Origin: a virus
Direction: 5' to 3' (one strand)
Virus record (IMG/VR): IMGVR_UViG_3300045282_000200
Location: 1 to 40,354 of that record
Length of the DNA stretch: 40,354 nt
The position numbers were made by a program, and so were the translations under genes. Shown in pieces: positions 1,564 to 37,105 of the stretch (its first letter is position 1; the number at the start of each line of letters is the position of its first letter). Under the pieces are notes generated by a model. It searched no databases, had not been told where the DNA came from, and saw only the letters and a program-made list of their open reading frames with translations.

Positions 1564-1739
1564 CCGCGTGTCCTTTGCTGGCGCACGTACTCGTCGACGT
1601 CCTGGCCGCCGCACCAGTCCGGGTCCGCATACCACCACCACCGGCCAGACGTGTCCTGCCGCCAGTGCGGGTCGTCCGGGTCGTGCCAGTTGTCAGGCAG
1701 TTCGGTCCCCGCGACCGCAGGGTTCACCTGATCGTTCAC
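1560..1739 (-). CDS. 59-residue Trp/Asp-rich hypothetical
   Basis: Starts at GTG 1739, overlapping the integrase stop as GTGA. Rich in Trp, Asp and Pro, including a WRQDTSGRWWWYADPDW segment that is probably a compact beta fold. No family recognised. Co-translated with the integrase and the genes below it. Confidence 0.5.
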   Translation of the reverse strand: MNDQVNPAVAGTELPDNWHDPDDPHWRQDTSGRWWWYADPDWCGGQDVDEYVRQQRTRG

Positions 1740-2611
1740 GACGCCTCCCGCATCGGCTCCGGCGGCGGACTCCCCGGGAACGGCAGCGCAGCCACAGCCG
1801 CCGTCACACCCGCCCGCGAGAACGCCGCATACTTCGCTGTCGTCGACGGCGACACATGCCCCATCAGGTCACCCACCAGCCGCAGATCCTTCGTCGCCTG
1901 ATACATCTGCGAAGCGAAACGATGCCGCAAGTCATGGAACCGGGCCTTCGTCCCGCATCCCCGCAGATGCTCGTTAAGCGTCCTTGACATGAACCACGGC
2001 GTGAACGGCCGCCCGTAAGCATCAGTGAACGCGTACCCGGCCAGCGGCAGGTCGTAGGCGAACAACTCGCGGACCACAAACGGGCTGAGTTCCACGACGC
2101 GTTCCTTGCGGCCCTTCGCCGACTCAGCGGACACGATCACGACCGGCGGCAGGTCATGCAGCCGCAGGTTCTCCACCCGCAGCCCCGCTATCTCACCGAC
2201 CCGCAACCCGCACCAGCCGCCGAGAACGAACGCCGGCCGCAGCCACATCTTGTGGGTAGTCGCGTCCAGGGCAGCCATCAGGTCGGCTTCGGGGATCGGC
2301 CGCGGGATCCGGTCCGGCATCTTCGGCACCGGGACACCCTTCATCGGGTTCTCCTCGACGAGCCCTTCGTCTTTCGCCCACGCGTAAAACGACTTGATGT
2401 GGGAGAGGTAGCAGGCGACGGATGCGGGTTTGATGGTGAGCCCGGCCCGCCACTGGTACAGGTGGTCACCCGTCGCATCGAGCAGCGGAACGGGGAGTGC
2501 GGCGGCGACGCGGGCGAGGGCTTGTTCGCGGCGTTCTATGGTGTACCGGGATTTGCCTTCGAGGGTGAGGTGCTTGAGGTGCCGCCGCACAGCCAGCTCA
2601 GCCCCGCTCAC
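1736..2611 (-). CDS. int: Tyrosine site-specific integrase
   Basis: A 291-residue recombinase that integrates and excises phage DNA at att sites. Residues 1-90 form the SAM-like core-binding domain. The catalytic domain shows Arg137 in GLRVGEIAGLR, a Lys near 167-169, HDLRH at 226-230, His252 in GHVSPSTT and the nucleophile Tyr261 in TAKYAAF. All catalytic residues are present and the length is normal, although there is no large N-terminal arm-binding domain. ATG 2611 overlaps the upstream stop by 4 bases, so it is expressed with the repressor-side operon. Downstream sit tiny coupled genes rather than an excisionase; the candidates for that are the MerR-like genes at 3913 or 4979. Confidence 0.95.
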   Translation of the reverse strand: MSGAELAVRRHLKHLTLEGKSRYTIERREQALARVAAALPVPLLDATGDHLYQWRAGLTIKPASVACYLSHIKSFYAWAKDEGLVEENPMKGVPVPKMPDRIPRPIPEADLMAALDATTHKMWLRPAFVLGGWCGLRVGEIAGLRVENLRLHDLPPVVIVSAESAKGRKERVVELSPFVVRELFAYDLPLAGYAFTDAYGRPFTPWFMSRTLNEHLRGCGTKARFHDLRHRFASQMYQATKDLRLVGDLMGHVSPSTTAKYAAFSRAGVTAAVAALPFPGSPPPEPMREAS

Positions 2612-2954: not shown

Positions 2955-3293
2955 TCATGACGCGATCTTAACCTGTGAATAATGCATATTGTTTACACGG
3001 CGTCTGACCTGCGACGATGTGCCGTTCGTGACGGGTTGCGGGCCGAGGTCGCATGGTTCCAGCGATCCGTGACAGAACCATGTGTAGGCGATCCCGGTGC
3101 GCAGCGCCCACAGTTTCATCGTCTGCGAGCTAGGGTCGATGCGGCCGTTGATCCACGTGGAGACGGTGGAACGGTCGACGTCGAGGTAGTCGGCCATGTC
3201 CTGCACGGACAGTCCGGCGTGGCGGAGCGATTTCCGCATCTTGTCGGCCAGGTCCCAGCGGGGCAGGGCGGCCGTGTCTGGCTGCTCAGTCAT
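2955..3293 (-). CDS. XRE-family HTH repressor (candidate immunity repressor)
   Basis: 112 residues. Residues 15-66 form a lambda-Cro/XRE helix-turn-helix: LADKMRKSLRHAGLSVQDMA, then DYLDVDRSTVSTWINGRIDP, with the recognition helix around 41-49. The rest is short, so there is no self-cleaving peptidase domain and induction would not be of the LexA type. It is the most likely lysogeny regulator because it is transcribed leftward from the operator region. The 3' end of the gene is AT-rich and contains an ATGCAT dyad (2978-2990). ATG 3293 overlaps the upstream stop. Confidence 0.8.
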   Translation of the reverse strand: MTEQPDTAALPRWDLADKMRKSLRHAGLSVQDMADYLDVDRSTVSTWINGRIDPSSQTMKLWALRTGIAYTWFCHGSLEPCDLGPQPVTNGTSSQVRRRVNNMHYSQVKIAS

Positions 3294-11198: not shown

Positions 11199-12440
11199 GT
11201 GAGTGTGCTTGTGGTGCAGGGTGACGCCCGCGAACTGCCGCTACCTGACGCGTCGGTGGACCTGATCGTCACGTCACCGCCGTATTTCGGGCTCCGTAGC
11301 TACACGGATGGTGGTGAGCATTACATCGGCCAGATCGGGTCCGAGGCGACCCCGGCGGCGTATGTGGCGGCGCTGGTGGCGTGCACGGCTGAGTGGGTGC
11401 GGGTTTTGAAGCAGTCGGGGAGCCTGTTCGTCAACCTCGGCGACAAATACGCCGGGAGTGGCGGCGACGGTAACTCTGGGCTAGCGCATTCCTACGCCGG
11501 GGACGTGAAGCACATCCCGCGCAGCGGCAAGCGGTGGACGCATCCTGCGAAGTCGTTGCTGGGGTTGCCGTGGCGTTACGCCCTCACCGTCACCGACCAG
11601 CTCGGCCTCATCCTCCGCGCCGAAATCATCTGGGCCAAACCCAACGGCCTCCCCGAGTCGGTGACGGACCGGGTGCGGCGGGCGCATGAGCAGGTGTTTC
11701 ATTTCACGGTCCGGCCGCGGTATTACTCCGCCGTAGACGAAATCCGCGAACCCCACAACCCGGCCACGCATGCACGGGGCCGCAACGGTGCGATGGAACG
11801 TGACGGTGTATCGCTGCCGACGTGGGGGGCCAGCGGCACGCAGAGTCTTCGCGGTGTCGAGAAGCGATACCTGCAGGACCCGCTGGGGAAGTTGCCGGGG
11901 TCGGTGTGGTCTATCCCGTCGCAGCCGCTCACCGTCCCCCCCGCCCTCGGCGTCGACCATTTCGCGGCGTTCCCGATGGAACTACCGCGCCGGCTGATTT
12001 TGGGGTGGTCGCCGCCGGGGGTTTGTGTGGGGTGCGGTCAAGGCAGACGACCAGTCACAGAACGGCAGGCCATGGTGGTCCGTCCCAGCACCCGCCGCTT
12101 GCTAGCGCAGGCAAACGGCAATGCCAGCCGCACAGCCACCGGCGGGACGGTTGTCACGCCGCCGTCAGCGACCATCACCGGCTACGCGTGCCGCTGCGCG
12201 ACCCCCGCCGCACCAGTCAACCCCGCTGTTGTCCTTGATCCGTTTGGCGGGACCGGTACGACCGCGCTCCTCGCCCACACACTCGGCCGCACCGGCATCA
12301 CCATCGACCGATCCGCCGACTATGCACGCATCGCCGCCTGGCGCACCACCGATCCGGGTGAACGTGCCCGCGCCATGCAAGTCGACCGGCCACCACCCGT
12401 CCACCCAGACCAAGACACACTCTTTGAGGTGACCTCATGA
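11199..12440 (+). CDS. DNA (cytosine-N4 or adenine-N6) methyltransferase
   Basis: 413 residues from GTG 11199. Catalytic motif IV is TSPPY (25-29) and the AdoMet-binding motif I DPFGGTGTT (347-355) comes late, giving the beta-class order. TSPPY fits m4C or some m6A enzymes. Residues 276-333 carry Cys pairs (CVGC, CRC), a probable zinc-binding insert. No restriction partner is next to it, so it is likely an orphan enzyme protecting or marking phage DNA. Confidence 0.85.
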   Translation: MSVLVVQGDARELPLPDASVDLIVTSPPYFGLRSYTDGGEHYIGQIGSEATPAAYVAALVACTAEWVRVLKQSGSLFVNLGDKYAGSGGDGNSGLAHSYAGDVKHIPRSGKRWTHPAKSLLGLPWRYALTVTDQLGLILRAEIIWAKPNGLPESVTDRVRRAHEQVFHFTVRPRYYSAVDEIREPHNPATHARGRNGAMERDGVSLPTWGASGTQSLRGVEKRYLQDPLGKLPGSVWSIPSQPLTVPPALGVDHFAAFPMELPRRLILGWSPPGVCVGCGQGRRPVTERQAMVVRPSTRRLLAQANGNASRTATGGTVVTPPSATITGYACRCATPAAPVNPAVVLDPFGGTGTTALLAHTLGRTGITIDRSADYARIAAWRTTDPGERARAMQVDRPPPVHPDQDTLFEVTS

Positions 12441-30518: not shown

Positions 30519-30713
30519 ATGAGCAAGGTAAAGAACATCTCCGGCGGGCCGCTGGACGTGCCGCTGCTGAACCGGCAAGTCGAAGCGGACGAGGTCGTCG
30601 ACGTCCCCGATTTCCAGCCCGGCCACACCGACGAGGATCCGCTGCCGATCATCTGGCCGCCCGACAAGTGGGCGCCGGTAGCTGACAAGAAGACAAGTAA
30701 GGCGGCTGGCTGA
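30519..30713 (+). CDS. 64-residue conserved tail-region protein
   Basis: MSKVKNISGGPLDVPLLNRQ, VPDFQPGHTDEDPLPIIWPP. Short beta-type protein usual just before the tail tube gene in siphophages. AGGAGAG ribosome site. Shares one base with the next start. Confidence 0.6.
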   Translation: MSKVKNISGGPLDVPLLNRQVEADEVVDVPDFQPGHTDEDPLPIIWPPDKWAPVADKKTSKAAG

Positions 30714-31810
30714 TGCCTACCTATGCGTCCGGACTGAGCGGCCAGGTCGGCGTCATCGCTGAGTCAACGTACGGGACCCCGGTGACGGTAACTAAGTTCT
30801 ACGAGTTCCTGTCAGAGAACCTGCAGTACAACCCGACATGGCTTGACGGCATGGGCCTGAAATCCGGGCAGGCGTTTAACCGGTTCTCCCGGACCGTGGT
30901 GTCGCAGAAGGATGTCAACGGCGACCTCACCATGGAACACACCTCCGGTGAGGCCGCGAACGCGGTCGCCGACAGCATGGGGTTCTGGTGGAAGTTCGCC
31001 CTCGGCTCCACGCTGGTCACTCCCACCGTCGTGCTCGGTACGGCGTTTAAGCAAGTCCACACGCCAGGGTCGAAGGCTGGCCAGTTCATGACGGTCCAGG
31101 TCGGCCGTCCCCAGATTTCTGGTGTCACCGTCCAGCCATTCACCTACACCGGCGTGAAACTGACCGACTGGGAATTCTCGTGTAATGACAACCAGATCGC
31201 CCAGCTGAAGGTCACGTTCGACGGCCGCGACGAAGGCACCGGCACCGGCCTCGCCGCCGCGTCCTACCCGACCCCCAACGGCCTGTTCGCGTTCTCCCAC
31301 GCATCGGTGATGACGATCGGCGGCACCGCATCGACGTCCGCTGGTGAGACAACGGTCGCGGCCGGGGTGTCCCTCGGGTCCCTGGTCAACGGCATCGTGA
31401 TCACAGGGTCGAACCCGATGAAACTCGACCGGTACGGCCTCGGCAACCAGGGCCTTAAGGGTGAACCGATTGAAAATGCTATCCCGACAATTACGGGCAC
31501 TCTTAACACCGAGTTCTTTTCTAGGACAGAACTTTACGACGTCTTCAAGACCGCAGCGGGGACGGCGCTGCAGCTCGACTTCACGAAGTTCGATTCGGCT
31601 GGCCTTGACGCGAACGGCGTCGCCTCAGGGCCGAACCCGTTCCGCCTGTCGTTCATCTTCCCGAAAGTCCTCTTCAAGACTGGCAGCGTCAACGTGAACG
31701 GGCCGGACGTTGTGCCGCAGCAGGTCGGGTTCCAGGCGTACGACGACGGGTCCGGCACCAACCCTGTTATGCAGGTGAAGCTGGTGAGTAAAGAGTCGTC
31801 AGCTATCTGA
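30713..31810 (+). CDS. Major tail (tube) protein
   Basis: 365 residues. MPTYASGLSGQVGVIAESTY, PFTYTGVKLTDWEFSC, later NGIVITGSNPMKLDRYGLG and FRLSFIFPKVLF. The size, strand pattern and position (after completion proteins, before chaperones) fit a tube subunit. Overlaps the minus-strand RHH gene by 12 bases at the end. Confidence 0.82.
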   Translation: MPTYASGLSGQVGVIAESTYGTPVTVTKFYEFLSENLQYNPTWLDGMGLKSGQAFNRFSRTVVSQKDVNGDLTMEHTSGEAANAVADSMGFWWKFALGSTLVTPTVVLGTAFKQVHTPGSKAGQFMTVQVGRPQISGVTVQPFTYTGVKLTDWEFSCNDNQIAQLKVTFDGRDEGTGTGLAAASYPTPNGLFAFSHASVMTIGGTASTSAGETTVAAGVSLGSLVNGIVITGSNPMKLDRYGLGNQGLKGEPIENAIPTITGTLNTEFFSRTELYDVFKTAAGTALQLDFTKFDSAGLDANGVASGPNPFRLSFIFPKVLFKTGSVNVNGPDVVPQQVGFQAYDDGSGTNPVMQVKLVSKESSAI

Positions 31811-31954
31811 CCCGCGCTGTTCCGCTTCGATGAGTTCTTCGATGAGCTGACTGCGGGTGATGTCACGTTCCGCGGCCCGGACCCTGAGCCAGCGGACGAG
31901 GTCGTTCCGCACCCAGACGGAGATCTGCCGCCTGGGTGCCGCGTCGTCTGTCAT
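31799..31954 (-). CDS. RHH regulator of the reverse-strand unit
   Basis: 51 residues on the minus strand. RRQISVWVRNDLVRWLRVRA, then AERDITRSQLIEELIEAEQR is a CopG-type ribbon-helix-helix: beta strand 9-16, helix 17-29, turn DITR, helix 35-44. Probably a dimeric repressor. It is the second gene of a two-gene reverse unit, 4 bases after the membrane gene, and its end overlaps the tail gene by 12 bases. Confidence 0.75.
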   Translation of the reverse strand: MTDDAAPRRQISVWVRNDLVRWLRVRAAERDITRSQLIEELIEAEQRGSDS

Positions 31955-31958
31955 CGGG

Positions 31959-32234
31959 TTAGTACCCGGTGCCGCTCTGGCTGACGGCTGCGGCGAGGCT
32001 GATCAGGAACGCGACGATGATGGCGGCGCCGACAGCGAACCACAGCCAGCCGAGCACGACAGCCCACGTTGCCAGTGCGGATGCACGGTAGCCTGCTCGC
32101 TTTGCCTGGCCCATGGACACGTGGCCCATGATGGCGCCGACGGGCGGCACGATCCAGGCGAGGACGAACGCCCAGATGTCGATGTTCTGGGCGTTGGCCC
32201 TGGGCCGCTGGCGGGGGAGTACCTGGCTGTTCAT
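31959..32234 (-). CDS. DUF4190-like membrane protein (moron candidate)
   Basis: 91 residues, minus strand, with AGGAGG at good distance from ATG 32234. Two hydrophobic segments: IWAFVLAWIVPPVGAIMGHV (20-39) and a second covering about 51-83. The motif GHVSMGQAKRAGYRASALA between them matches DUF4190. It is in the opposite direction to the tail operon and has its own promoter, so it is expected to be made in the lysogen. A membrane role in exclusion or host change is inference. Confidence 0.78.
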   Translation of the reverse strand: MNSQVLPRQRPRANAQNIDIWAFVLAWIVPPVGAIMGHVSMGQAKRAGYRASALATWAVVLGWLWFAVGAAIIVAFLISLAAAVSQSGTGY

Positions 32235-32258
32235 TAACTGCCTCCTGTTGTCAATACC

Positions 32259-32287
32259 AAAGTATTCGGCCTACTTAAGGATGTCAA
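32259..32287 (-). promoter_or_regulatory. Consensus-like promoter for the reverse unit
   Basis: On the minus strand, TTGACA (complement of 32282-32287), a 17-base spacer, then TACTTT (complement of 32259-32264). The match to a vegetative sigma promoter is strong. AATAC/GTATT arms at 32253-32266 overlap the -10 and could be an operator for the RHH protein. The -35 box covers the ATG of the plus-strand gene at 32287. Confidence 0.75.
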
Positions 32288-32616
32288 TGGCGGACCACAC
32301 GGTTGCCGCGGCGAAAATCATCGCCGCCGAGGCGCAGCGGCTTGCCGCCCGGTGGTCGGTGCAGGTGCCGCCGTCGATCCGGGTAACCGGCGGCGGCACC
32401 TCCGCCACCATCATCAGCCAGGTCGGCCCGTCGTATCCGAATGAGGTCGCCGGGGTCCGGCACCCGGTGTACGGGAACCGGCACAACTGGGTCCTCAACC
32501 AGTACCGGCCGTTCCTCGCACCGGCTGCGGATGCGAAGGCGGATGCGGCAGCCGCGGAGGTCGCGAAAGTGGTCGACGACTACGCCCACGCCGACGGATT
32601 CGCGGGTACCGGATGA
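32287..32616 (+). CDS. HK97 gp10-like tail completion protein
   Basis: 109 residues from ATG 32287 (ATG 32281 possible; AAGG lies 8 bases before 32287). ADHTVAAAKIIAAEAQRLAA, then RHPVYGNRHNWVLNQYRPFL and a C-terminal helix follow the gp10-like head-tail joining pattern. Its start overlaps the reverse promoter. Confidence 0.65.
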   Translation: MADHTVAAAKIIAAEAQRLAARWSVQVPPSIRVTGGGTSATIISQVGPSYPNEVAGVRHPVYGNRHNWVLNQYRPFLAPAADAKADAAAAEVAKVVDDYAHADGFAGTG

Positions 32617-32981
32617 AGATCGAATTTCAGGGCCGCACGTGGCAGGTCGACACGGATGAGATCGGCCTGCGGCAGGCGATGGTGATCACGTCCCGGCTCG
32701 GGTCATCGCTGACCGGGTGGGAGAAAACCCTGACCGATCCCGACAGCCCGCAGTGGCTGACCGCGGTGGAATGCCTGTACTGGCTGATGCTGGCGCAAGA
32801 CGGGCAGCAGGTCCCGATCGGCGAAGTCGATTTCCCGGTCCTGAAACTGGCGGAGGCGTTCGCTGACGCCGCGCTCGCCGAAGCGAAGCAAACCGCAGCC
32901 GAGCAGGAGCCGGACCCTACGAAGTCCGCCGCCAGCAACGGCGCGGCGGCGCCTCAGCCAGCAACACCGGTAACTGGCTGA
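32613..32981 (+). CDS. Tail assembly chaperone, short form
   Basis: 122 residues. MKIEFQGRTWQVDTDEIGLR, QWLTAVECLYWLMLAQDGQQ and a C-terminal Glu/Ala-rich part. Placed directly before the tape measure; these chaperones bind the tape measure protein during tail assembly. The long form is made by -1 frameshift near 32912. Confidence 0.75.
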   Translation: MKIEFQGRTWQVDTDEIGLRQAMVITSRLGSSLTGWEKTLTDPDSPQWLTAVECLYWLMLAQDGQQVPIGEVDFPVLKLAEAFADAALAEAKQTAAEQEPDPTKSAASNGAAAPQPATPVTG

Positions 32982-33172
32982 ACCGGTACCGGGACGAACC
33001 TGACCTGCGGGCGTTGCGGTACCGGTACCTGTTCGACCTTGCCCAGATCTGCCACTGTCCCCCGCCGGTCGTCGACGAGCTGAGGTTCCTCGACTTCGCG
33101 TTCCTCGCCGAAGGGCTGGAGAAGATGCGCGCCGACCAGCAGAAAGCCGAGGCCAGGAATGCCGCTCGTTAA
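32613..33172 (+). CDS. Tail assembly chaperone, -1 frameshift product
   Basis: In the -1 frame the sequence after 32918 reads YEVRRQQRRGGASASN, then WLNRYRDEPDLRALRYRYLF and FAFLAEGLEKMRADQQ to a stop at 33170-33172, a typical second chaperone domain without its own start. A slip at GGACCCT (32912-32918), where the CCT codon could re-pair as CCC, is the best candidate. The fused product would be about 186 residues. The stop overlaps the tape measure start by 14 bases. Confidence 0.7.
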
Positions 33173-34952: not shown

Positions 34953-35357
34953 GTGCCTGATGTTGACATTGCGATCACGGCCGGTTCCGGGACCCCCGTC
35001 CGGGCGTTCCAGAAAGTGTCTGGCGACTATGACCAGTATGTTCGCGAAGCCGGGGCGACCGCGAAAGGGACCCTGTCCAATATTCCGTGGCTGGTGACGA
35101 CGACGGGGCTCACTACTGTCATCGCGGCGGACGTGACCCGGGTCGGGCTGGTTCTGGTCAGCGCGGCGACGGGGACCGTGTACCTGCGGTTCGACGCGAC
35201 CGTCCCGACGCCTCTGGCGACGCCGCCGTTGTATGACTGGTACCTGCAGCCTGGCGACCGGTATGAGGTGCCGATGGCTTTCGACTCGCTGGCGGTGTCG
35301 ATGATCGGGACGACAGCGGGCGGTTATATTCTCGCCGCGTCGGGGGTGTGCGCCTGA
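34953..35357 (+). CDS. 134-residue tail-tip accessory protein
   Basis: From GTG 34953. MPDVDIAITAGSGTPVRAFQ, Thr and Val-rich strands, and a Gly/Tyr region before the end. Beta-rich, suited to a tail tip component. The stop overlaps the next start by 1 base (TGATG). Confidence 0.5.
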   Translation: MPDVDIAITAGSGTPVRAFQKVSGDYDQYVREAGATAKGTLSNIPWLVTTTGLTTVIAADVTRVGLVLVSAATGTVYLRFDATVPTPLATPPLYDWYLQPGDRYEVPMAFDSLAVSMIGTTAGGYILAASGVCA

Positions 35358-37105
35358 TGCCTGTATCGCCGGCGGGGGTGGCGCAGGTCCCGAACTACTG
35401 GACGGTGTTCGGCCATTCCTATTTTCAGCACACCTTCGGCACGAGGACGCAGGCGGGCCGTGCTGACGCCTTGTTCCGTAATTTGCTGAACGTTGACCAC
35501 ACGTCGTTCGCGAACCTCGCGATCACCGGTTCGACGCTGACGCATCAGGGTGCTGCGCAAGGCGGGTACGCCCGCCTGCTGCAGAACGTGACCGGGTTCG
35601 AGCTCGGCACCAACGCCGGCCTCGGCCCGTACGTGGCGGGCGGCGGATCGTATCTGCTGACGTGGGGTATCAACGATCTCGGGTTCAACGGCAACACCGC
35701 CCAGTTCAACTCCGCCTACATTCAGGCCCTGCGGATGGCTATCAGCCGGTGCCGCATGTCAGTTCTCCGCGACGACGACTACGCGGGGGGTGCCGGGACC
35801 GGTGTCATCACGTACGGGGCCGGGTTCACGATCACGTTCTTCAACTCGGAGATCGCATCAGGGAACACCCTCCACACATGTAACACGACTGGTGCGAACG
35901 CCACTGTCACCATCACCCTCCCGACGGATTACAACGGGGAGGTGGTGGCGCTTTCGTTTATCTGCAACGGCGGCGTCAACGGCGGAGTCGTCACGTTCTC
36001 CGGCACCGCGGGCGTGACCGGCACCCTGTCACTGTCGAACATCATGCCTGCCACCTCCCTGTCAACATCGCCAGTCATACAGCGGATCAAGAACCTCACC
36101 TCCGCTAATGCGGGGCAGACGATCATCATCACCGTCACGTCGCTGGACGCCGGGCCGGGTGTCGTCTTGTTCGACGGGTACTGGCTTGAGGCGAAAAACC
36201 CGCCGCCGGTCCTGGTGTGCAACACTGCGCGGCTCCTCACCGCCGGGTATGCCGGGTACCTGACCGGTATCGGTGACGCTGACGTGAACACGTTCAACGC
36301 GCTCCTGCCTGCCCTGGTGGCTGAGTTTGACGGCATGGTCCAGATCGTCGACATCGACTCGGCGCTGAACAAGGACACCAACAAGTTCGCGTTCGACGGG
36401 CTGCACCCGAACGAGCTGGGCGCGGCTGCGATGTCGGATGCGATCCTGGCGGCGGTGCGGCGCCTGCCGGCGAATCAGTGGGGTGTCGCCGCATCGATCC
36501 AGCCGCCCGCGCCTCGCTCCGCTGCCGTGGTGCTGCCTGTCATCAACGGCCTGTGGTACACGTCGCAGTCCGACGGCGGACCTAACGGCACCGCGTACAC
36601 GTCCGTGGCAGGGGATGTGTGGGCGATCCCGTTCGAGGTAACATCCGGGTTCTCCCGGTGGGTGCAATGGGATGTTGAGCTCATCACGTCGACCGTGGCG
36701 ACGACGGTCCTGATGTGCATTTATGATGACCGCCGGTACCTGGGGTATCCGCAGCAGCTGTATCAGCAGCCCGCGAACGTCGCAGGCACGCCGTTGTCGC
36801 TGGCGACCGGTGCGGGCGCGAAACTATCCAGTACGACCCCGGCAACGAACGGGTACCTCAACATCGCTCCCGACCCGGGTTTGTACTGGCTGGCCCTGAA
36901 AATCATTACCGCGGGGACGACAACGTTCCGCACCATCAAAGGACCGTCGCTGTTCCTGCCGAACATGACCGGCGCCGGTCTCGGCGGTGTCGCGCCGTGC
37001 GGGTTCAAGCTGACCGGGCAGGGTGCCACCGCGCTGCCGGGGTCGTTCCCTGCTGGCGGGGTGGCGTCTGATAACGCGGTGATGATCGGCCTGCTGACCG
37101 GGTGA
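35357..37105 (+). CDS. SGNH/GDSL hydrolase-type tail protein
   Basis: 582 residues. Block I VFGHSYF (Ser21), block III WGINDLG (Gly104, Asn106, Asp107), block V FDGLHPNELG (Asp347, His350) make the Ser-Asp-His triad of an SGNH esterase. Between blocks III and V, about residues 150-285 form a beta-rich insert (NTTGANATVTITLPTDYNGE) that looks carbohydrate binding. The last 200 residues are another beta domain. Likely removes acetyl or acyl groups from a host surface polymer during adsorption. Confidence 0.8.
   Translation: MPVSPAGVAQVPNYWTVFGHSYFQHTFGTRTQAGRADALFRNLLNVDHTSFANLAITGSTLTHQGAAQGGYARLLQNVTGFELGTNAGLGPYVAGGGSYLLTWGINDLGFNGNTAQFNSAYIQALRMAISRCRMSVLRDDDYAGGAGTGVITYGAGFTITFFNSEIASGNTLHTCNTTGANATVTITLPTDYNGEVVALSFICNGGVNGGVVTFSGTAGVTGTLSLSNIMPATSLSTSPVIQRIKNLTSANAGQTIIITVTSLDAGPGVVLFDGYWLEAKNPPPVLVCNTARLLTAGYAGYLTGIGDADVNTFNALLPALVAEFDGMVQIVDIDSALNKDTNKFAFDGLHPNELGAAAMSDAILAAVRRLPANQWGVAASIQPPAPRSAAVVLPVINGLWYTSQSDGGPNGTAYTSVAGDVWAIPFEVTSGFSRWVQWDVELITSTVATTVLMCIYDDRRYLGYPQQLYQQPANVAGTPLSLATGAGAKLSSTTPATNGYLNIAPDPGLYWLALKIITAGTTTFRTIKGPSLFLPNMTGAGLGGVAPCGFKLTGQGATALPGSFPAGGVASDNAVMIGLLTG

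Follow-up and report, generated by a model that had tools for sequence, protein, structure and literature searches.

A minus-strand gene pair in the tail operon of a temperate, actinobacteriophage-like virus: a putative autoregulated moron with exchangeable membrane effectors

Two small genes that run against the surrounding late genes in the tail operon of a virus raise the question of what such a pair does there and when it is read. The window, i.e., the whole stretch of DNA analysed here, is a virus record of 40,354 bases given as a single strand, and between its tail-tube gene and the next tail gene there are indeed, as the initial annotation had claimed, two ORFs on the minus strand. The gene read first (31959-32234, minus strand) encodes a small membrane protein of 91 aa that belongs to the DUF4190 family (Pfam PF13828) and is the proposed effector. 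The second gene, which starts 4 nt past the DUF4190 stop codon (31799-31954, minus strand), encodes an RHH protein of 51 aa, recognised by weak Pfam RHH matches together with its fold, and is the proposed autorepressor. The left border of this slot is the tail-tube gene (30713-31810, plus strand; Pfam PF18906, E 2.8e-19), whose 3′ end is overlapped by the final 12 nt of the RHH gene in such a way that the RHH stop codon is the antisense of a tube-gene Ser codon. The right border is a tail gene at the position of phiC31 gp40 (32287-32616, plus strand; PHROG 11991, E 1e-11), for which the label HK97-gp10-like corresponds to a weak Pfam HK97-gp10 match (E 0.11). Apart from the pair, a simple gene caller places one more minus-strand gene in the late region, as a shadow of this gp10-like gene, and no further one is found across 14.4 kb upstream and 5.4 kb downstream.

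The pair also appears to have its own expression signals. The promoter-like site described earlier is present on the minus strand at 32259-32287 (-35 TTGACA at 32282-32287, a spacer of 17 nt, and -10 TACTTT at 32259-32264), as is the Shine-Dalgarno sequence AGGAGG (32241-32246, minus strand), which is 6 nt away from the DUF4190 start codon ATG. TTGACA-N16-18-TANNNT has one match on both strands of the 40-kb window, where 0.14 are expected, and the promoter score of the window lies above that of dinucleotide shuffles (p=0.003). A generic promoter scanner passed over this site because the -10 matches the consensus at only 3/6 positions. The -35 overlaps the ATG of the next tail gene at 32287, so that the promoter does lie on top of the start of that gene. 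Candidate operator elements are found in the same stretch (32249-32288, minus strand), i.e., a direct repeat of ATTGACA with copies 33 nt apart (32249-32255 and 32282-32288) and an AATAC-N4-GTATT dyad (32253-32266). The dyad had been pointed out in the initial annotation and exists in the sequence, but in the window neither it nor the ATTGACA repeat goes beyond chance, and as an operator the dyad was rejected, since dyads with 5-bp arms are found in 42% of late-region 60-mers. No terminator-like site was found near the 3′ end of the cassette at 31799, where the RHH gene continues into the tube gene. Because its own terminator is missing, the pair is termed moron-like in layout, as read from the sequence, rather than a full classical promoter-gene-terminator moron; such a terminator is common in morons, although not always required.

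A moron of this kind would be read from its own promoter while the late genes are silent. The window encodes a tyrosine integrase (1736-2611, minus strand; Pfam PF00589, E 3e-19), indicative of a temperate lifestyle, and, in what appears to be the lysogeny module, an HTH repressor-like protein (2955-3293, minus strand; Pfam HTH_3, E 1e-8); a prophage state is therefore likely, and the cassette would be expressed in the lysogen. Of 18 relative contigs, 4 have an integrase, and 3 of these belong to the four contigs that reach at least 45 kb; a tyrosine integrase was not seen in many relative contigs, most of which are fragments. Prophages with a closely related tail tube were not found among genome contigs. 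The window virus appears to be a temperate, actinobacteriophage-like one, its actinobacterial affiliation being suggested by the phiC31-like tail. Two further ORFs of this tail (32613-32981 and 33014-33172) occupy the position of phiC31 gp41/gp42, which are annotated with ribosomal slippage, so that a tail-chaperone frameshift is likely in the window as well.

If the pair is a moron, related phages should differ in its presence. Searches of IMG/VR with the tail tube returned 25 and then 48 loci, in overlapping lists, most of them with 69-90% tube identity. Their genes were called with a codon model trained on those loci, and once duplicates had been collapsed there remained 29 distinct genomes that are complete from tube to tape measure, and one partial locus (L091); slot counts were taken by hand from the gene lists, and all related loci are metagenomic. 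Minus-strand cargo occupies 22 of the 29 complete slots (23/30 with L091), either immediately past the tube gene or one gene further on. No slot cargo is present in L017, L020, L021, L047, L057, and L060, and the L011 slot holds a plus-strand HNH-type gene. Minus-strand calls number 27 in 43.8 kb between tube and tape measure and are sparser upstream, with 11 in 111.8 kb. At the level of gene content, about 30 distinct IMG/VR relatives with a closely related tail tube thus have a hotspot between tube and tape measure.

With respect to the window itself, a next gene of the same type follows directly after the tube gene (within about 20 nt or less) in L019/L020, L021, and L060, and the post-tube genes of L019, L021, L060, and L047 are 50-55% identical to that of the window (aligned protein). 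Further relatives retrieved by the next gene are likewise without a minus-strand insert there, and in phiC31 gp39, gp40, gp41/42, and gp43 are contiguous. Since the slot is empty in L019/L020, L021, L060, and phiC31, the window pair is an insertion relative to these, and the cassette would have entered the tail operon in reverse orientation, at a slot that is variable. The exact gene pair of the window was found in no relative examined, which disposes of the case, raised in the initial annotation against its own moron reading, that the two genes always accompany the tail genes. Thus, the moron layout proposed earlier agrees both with the integrase and repressor-like protein of the window and with a slot that is empty in some relatives and filled with unrelated minus-strand cargo in others. 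Use of this slot may reflect either a tolerance of the late genes for insertions or the proximity of targets. It should be noted that in L004, L007, L022, L023, L024, and L038, as well as in the window (31799-31810), unrelated minus-strand cargo ends within the last bases of the tube gene, and the stop codons of these cargo genes therefore use tube-gene sequence. A second slot with small minus-strand genes precedes the tube gene by a few hundred bases in L008, L013, L015, L016, L020, and L057; this pre-tube slot holds a 90-aa membrane protein in L020 and an HNH-like gene in L009.

In 21 of the 23 cargo loci, a transmembrane protein or lipoprotein is encoded, as judged by hydropathy only from a hydrophobic helix or a lipobox. 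DUF4190 is present in the window and in L014, the only other locus with DUF4190 and an RHH protein. Imm_superinfect (PF14373) scores above the cut-off in L010, L037, L039, and L054, lipoproteins are found in L004/L070, L009, L013, L022, L023, and L024, a one-helix HILHLLLT family in L005, L006, L026, L064, L091, and perhaps L012, and other small membrane proteins in L007, L013, L015, and L038. Of the 23 cargo loci, 11 also have an RHH-type gene. The call is made firm by Pfam in L014, L009, L037, and L091 and by the fold in the window; it is weaker for L013 and L016, and for L007, L008, L012, and L054 it is tentative. Many slots contain an effector without an RHH gene. The position of the window cassette could also be taken as a sign of a different role. 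With a -35 overlapping the start of the next tail gene and an RHH gene overlapping the 3′ end of the tube gene, the pair might have a lytic-cycle function, as T4 imm does, or its minus transcript or RHH protein might tune the tail genes by antisense or promoter occlusion, and Imm_superinfect homologues are also found in many enterobacterial and mycobacterial phage records. However, unrelated cargo and unrelated RHH genes sit at differing positions between tube and tape measure, and some slots are empty, which speaks against a conserved role in tail expression; a lytic or tail-tuning function has little probability.

The DUF4190 protein would be an effector in the host membrane. Its match to the family lies just above the Pfam cut-off (35.2 vs. 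35 bits, E 1e-8), in agreement with its previous description as a DUF4190-like membrane protein; the frame is backed by codon usage (about +51 log2 units over 91 codons), and hydropathy reveals three hydrophobic stretches. The predicted model consists of two long helices at low confidence (pLDDT 66), and a structure search among viral proteins with this poor model gave no match. Close homologues were found neither in viral contigs nor in phage records nor in genome contigs, PADLOC gave no hit, and NCBIfam gave no useful match. The protein has no Pfam match to Imm_superinfect, and homology between DUF4190 and Imm_superinfect was rejected (hhalign probability about 1%). To our knowledge, DUF4190 has no known function, and a search of the literature on DUF4190 in phages or membranes found none.

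The RHH protein of the window is better defined by structure than by sequence. With the RHH at residues 8-46, it falls below the Pfam cut-offs (RHH_10, E 1.8e-4), its codon usage is neutral (about +1), and no close homologues were found in viral contigs. Nonetheless, the predicted model (pLDDT 87) has the strand-helix-helix fold of about 45 residues and matches CopG, Arc, and other RHH structures at a TM of about 0.7-0.8, with Foldseek E-values that are weak for this very short chain. Thus, the RHH regulator of the initial annotation is retained on the basis of its predicted fold, and the protein resembles the CopG/Arc repressors in what the model suggests is a minimal RHH fold.

The most informative relatives are L014, L009, L037, and L091, which have one RHH in common (88-96% identical). 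In all four, this RHH precedes an effector gene with an ATGA overlap, and in each the effector is a different one: L014 has DUF4190, L009 a 174-aa lipoprotein, L037 Imm_superinfect, and L091 an HILHLLLT one-helix protein. The shared RHH has a dN/dS of 0.08-0.32, and several slot effectors have values below neutral. By this exchange, DUF4190 is placed in the same functional position as Imm_superinfect without being homologous to it. Judged by gene order and sequence, the exchange of effectors behind one RHH is the strongest indirect argument for a membrane role in phage exclusion.

Two other readings of such a pair have to be weighed here. Two adjacent small genes, one of which encodes an RHH protein, could form a toxin-antitoxin or addiction pair, with DUF4190 as a membrane toxin neutralised by an RHH antitoxin, and related RHHs do have Pfam matches of antitoxin type, e.g., TacA1, FitA-like, and CopG_antitoxin. 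However, the window RHH (51 aa; others 44-46 aa) stops right after its DNA-binding domain, so that the C-terminal toxin-binding segment is missing and no tail is left to neutralise a toxin, one RHH with four unrelated effectors is a poor fit to a specific antitoxin, and effectors occur without an RHH in many slots. The short RHH and the swapping of effectors therefore make an addiction pair quite improbable. It is somewhat less improbable, though still unlikely, that the cassette is a lysogenic-conversion unit which modifies the envelope for a benefit other than exclusion (stress, transport, or signalling) by means of a host-derived DUF4190 protein. A DUF4190 match is indeed found in a cellular control genome, that of Corynebacterium glutamicum, where it is below the cut-off, and no exclusion function is known for the lipoproteins and one-helix proteins among the cargo, whereas Imm_superinfect in the same slots of four relatives and the single RHH that serves both Imm and DUF4190 effectors speak against such a unit. 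Thus, as relatives' slots hold Imm_superinfect, also behind an RHH common to a DUF4190 gene, superinfection exclusion is indirectly supported.

Regulation can be approached through the sister cassettes. As a group, the stretches upstream of 20 cassette operons have promoter scores above those of shuffles (Fisher p 1.2e-4, an optimistic value given that the cassettes are partly related), and 108 plus-strand gene-start controls give p 0.99; the strongest single cases are the window and L012 (TTGACA-16-TACGCT, p 0.010). All four cassettes with the shared RHH have two copies of GGTATAACC upstream of it, at a distance of 21-24 nt from each other (L009:8509-8541, L014:6093-6124, L037:6653-6682, and L091:2756-2785), and among 95 loci the paired motif is limited to these. 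Between the pair and the shared RHH gene there is a long leader of some 200 nt or more. A CCCAGG/CCTGGG dyad is present in the leaders of the shared-RHH cassettes, in the form CCCGGG/CCCGGG in L091, and clustered GGTACC is found in 264 kb only at the cassette promoters of L054 and L008. When all cassette promoters were put through a general test for repeats, only those of L016 and L054 reached p<0.05. Operator-like motifs that recur in this way are seen only where the RHHs of the cassettes are related; they are clear in the sister cassettes, and as sequence motifs at promoters and leaders they fit autoregulation of the sister cassettes by their RHHs. By analogy, the window RHH may likewise bind the cassette promoter and keep expression low. 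These observations also bear on the idea that the cassettes are functionless passenger DNA which arrived with homing endonucleases that also use the slots, as HNH-type genes in L009, L011, L013, and L016 could suggest. Given the purifying selection on the shared RHH, the dN/dS below neutral in several effectors, the promoters and repeated operator-like motifs, and the strong bias towards membrane proteins and lipoproteins, this idea deserves hardly any credence.

Taken as a whole, the cassette would be an autoregulated moron with exchangeable membrane effectors that most likely serves superinfection exclusion. It would be drawn from a pool which exchanges small membrane proteins and lipoproteins at this place, and it is because of this pool that the effector is most likely directed against superinfection; it would protect the lysogen by acting where entering phage DNA has to pass the envelope, as T4 Imm, HK97 gp15, and TP-J34 Ltp do. 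The reading that we rank first, and hold to be slightly more probable than all others together, is superinfection exclusion or an envelope effect closely related to it. Among known systems, the HK97 gp15 moron is similar in that it encodes a membrane superinfection-exclusion protein of a temperate long-tailed phage and has its place in the tail gene cluster, close to the tape measure gene; it belongs to another host group, we know of no RHH partner for gp15, and the likeness is one of role and gene position. Imm_superinfect proteins (T4 Imm and Bxb1 gp66-type) are small two-helix membrane proteins; in four relatives, members of this family occupy these same tail slots, and behind the shared RHH one takes the place of the effector, whereas DUF4190 is a separate Pfam family to which hhalign finds no homology, and the Bxb1 gene is located near the repressor and not among tail genes. 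Exclusion proteins of long-tailed phages, e.g., HK97 gp15, TP-J34 Ltp, and Tuc2009 Sie, interfere with DNA entry at the membrane, and escape from gp15 and Ltp maps to the tape measure or tube (PMC10883804, PMC3952083); injection of DNA is likewise blocked by T4 Imm (PMC11436027). Such a mode of action fits small membrane proteins and lipoproteins encoded beside the tube and tape measure genes. TP-J34 Ltp, a prophage-expressed lipoprotein that blocks DNA injection and has been discussed as a moron (PMC3952083), is similar by type to the lipoproteins that fill the slot in six relatives, but ltp is located in the lysogeny module. The anti-phage hotspots of P2 and P4 are small high-turnover loci between two conserved phage genes (PMC9122126); turnover between two conserved genes is high here as well, but those hotspots hold larger defence systems near cos, whereas the tail operon harbours one or two very small membrane-protein genes.

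If the exclusion reading is right, position among tail genes could be used as bait for new exclusion proteins in uncultured actinophage-like viruses, and DUF4190 would obtain a testable role. The cassettes would also be a clear example of a single regulator whose membrane effectors can be exchanged, and they lead to an idea that can be tested, namely that exclusion genes move together with those tube and tape-measure genes by which their targets are set. A bolder proposal, which we consider tentative and on balance doubtful, is that the tail modules of these soil phages carry a family of RHH-controlled cassettes in which the RHH stays while membrane effectors replace one another at a constant ATGA junction, beside the tube and tape-measure genes on which exclusion proteins of this kind usually act, that DUF4190 constitutes a new class of entry-exclusion protein, and that, being linked to tube and tape measure, attacker and self-escape can be exchanged by a phage in one step. 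A few other features deserve mention. In L047 (201-2387), L048, and L049, a second tail-tube-like gene lies directly after the first, as a duplication or as two paralogues. In the window, a predicted tail-region protein (35348-37105) has a GDSL lipase/acylhydrolase-like domain (Pfam E 3.5e-7), and an N6/N4 DNA methylase gene is found at 11199-12440 (Pfam E 8.6e-34).
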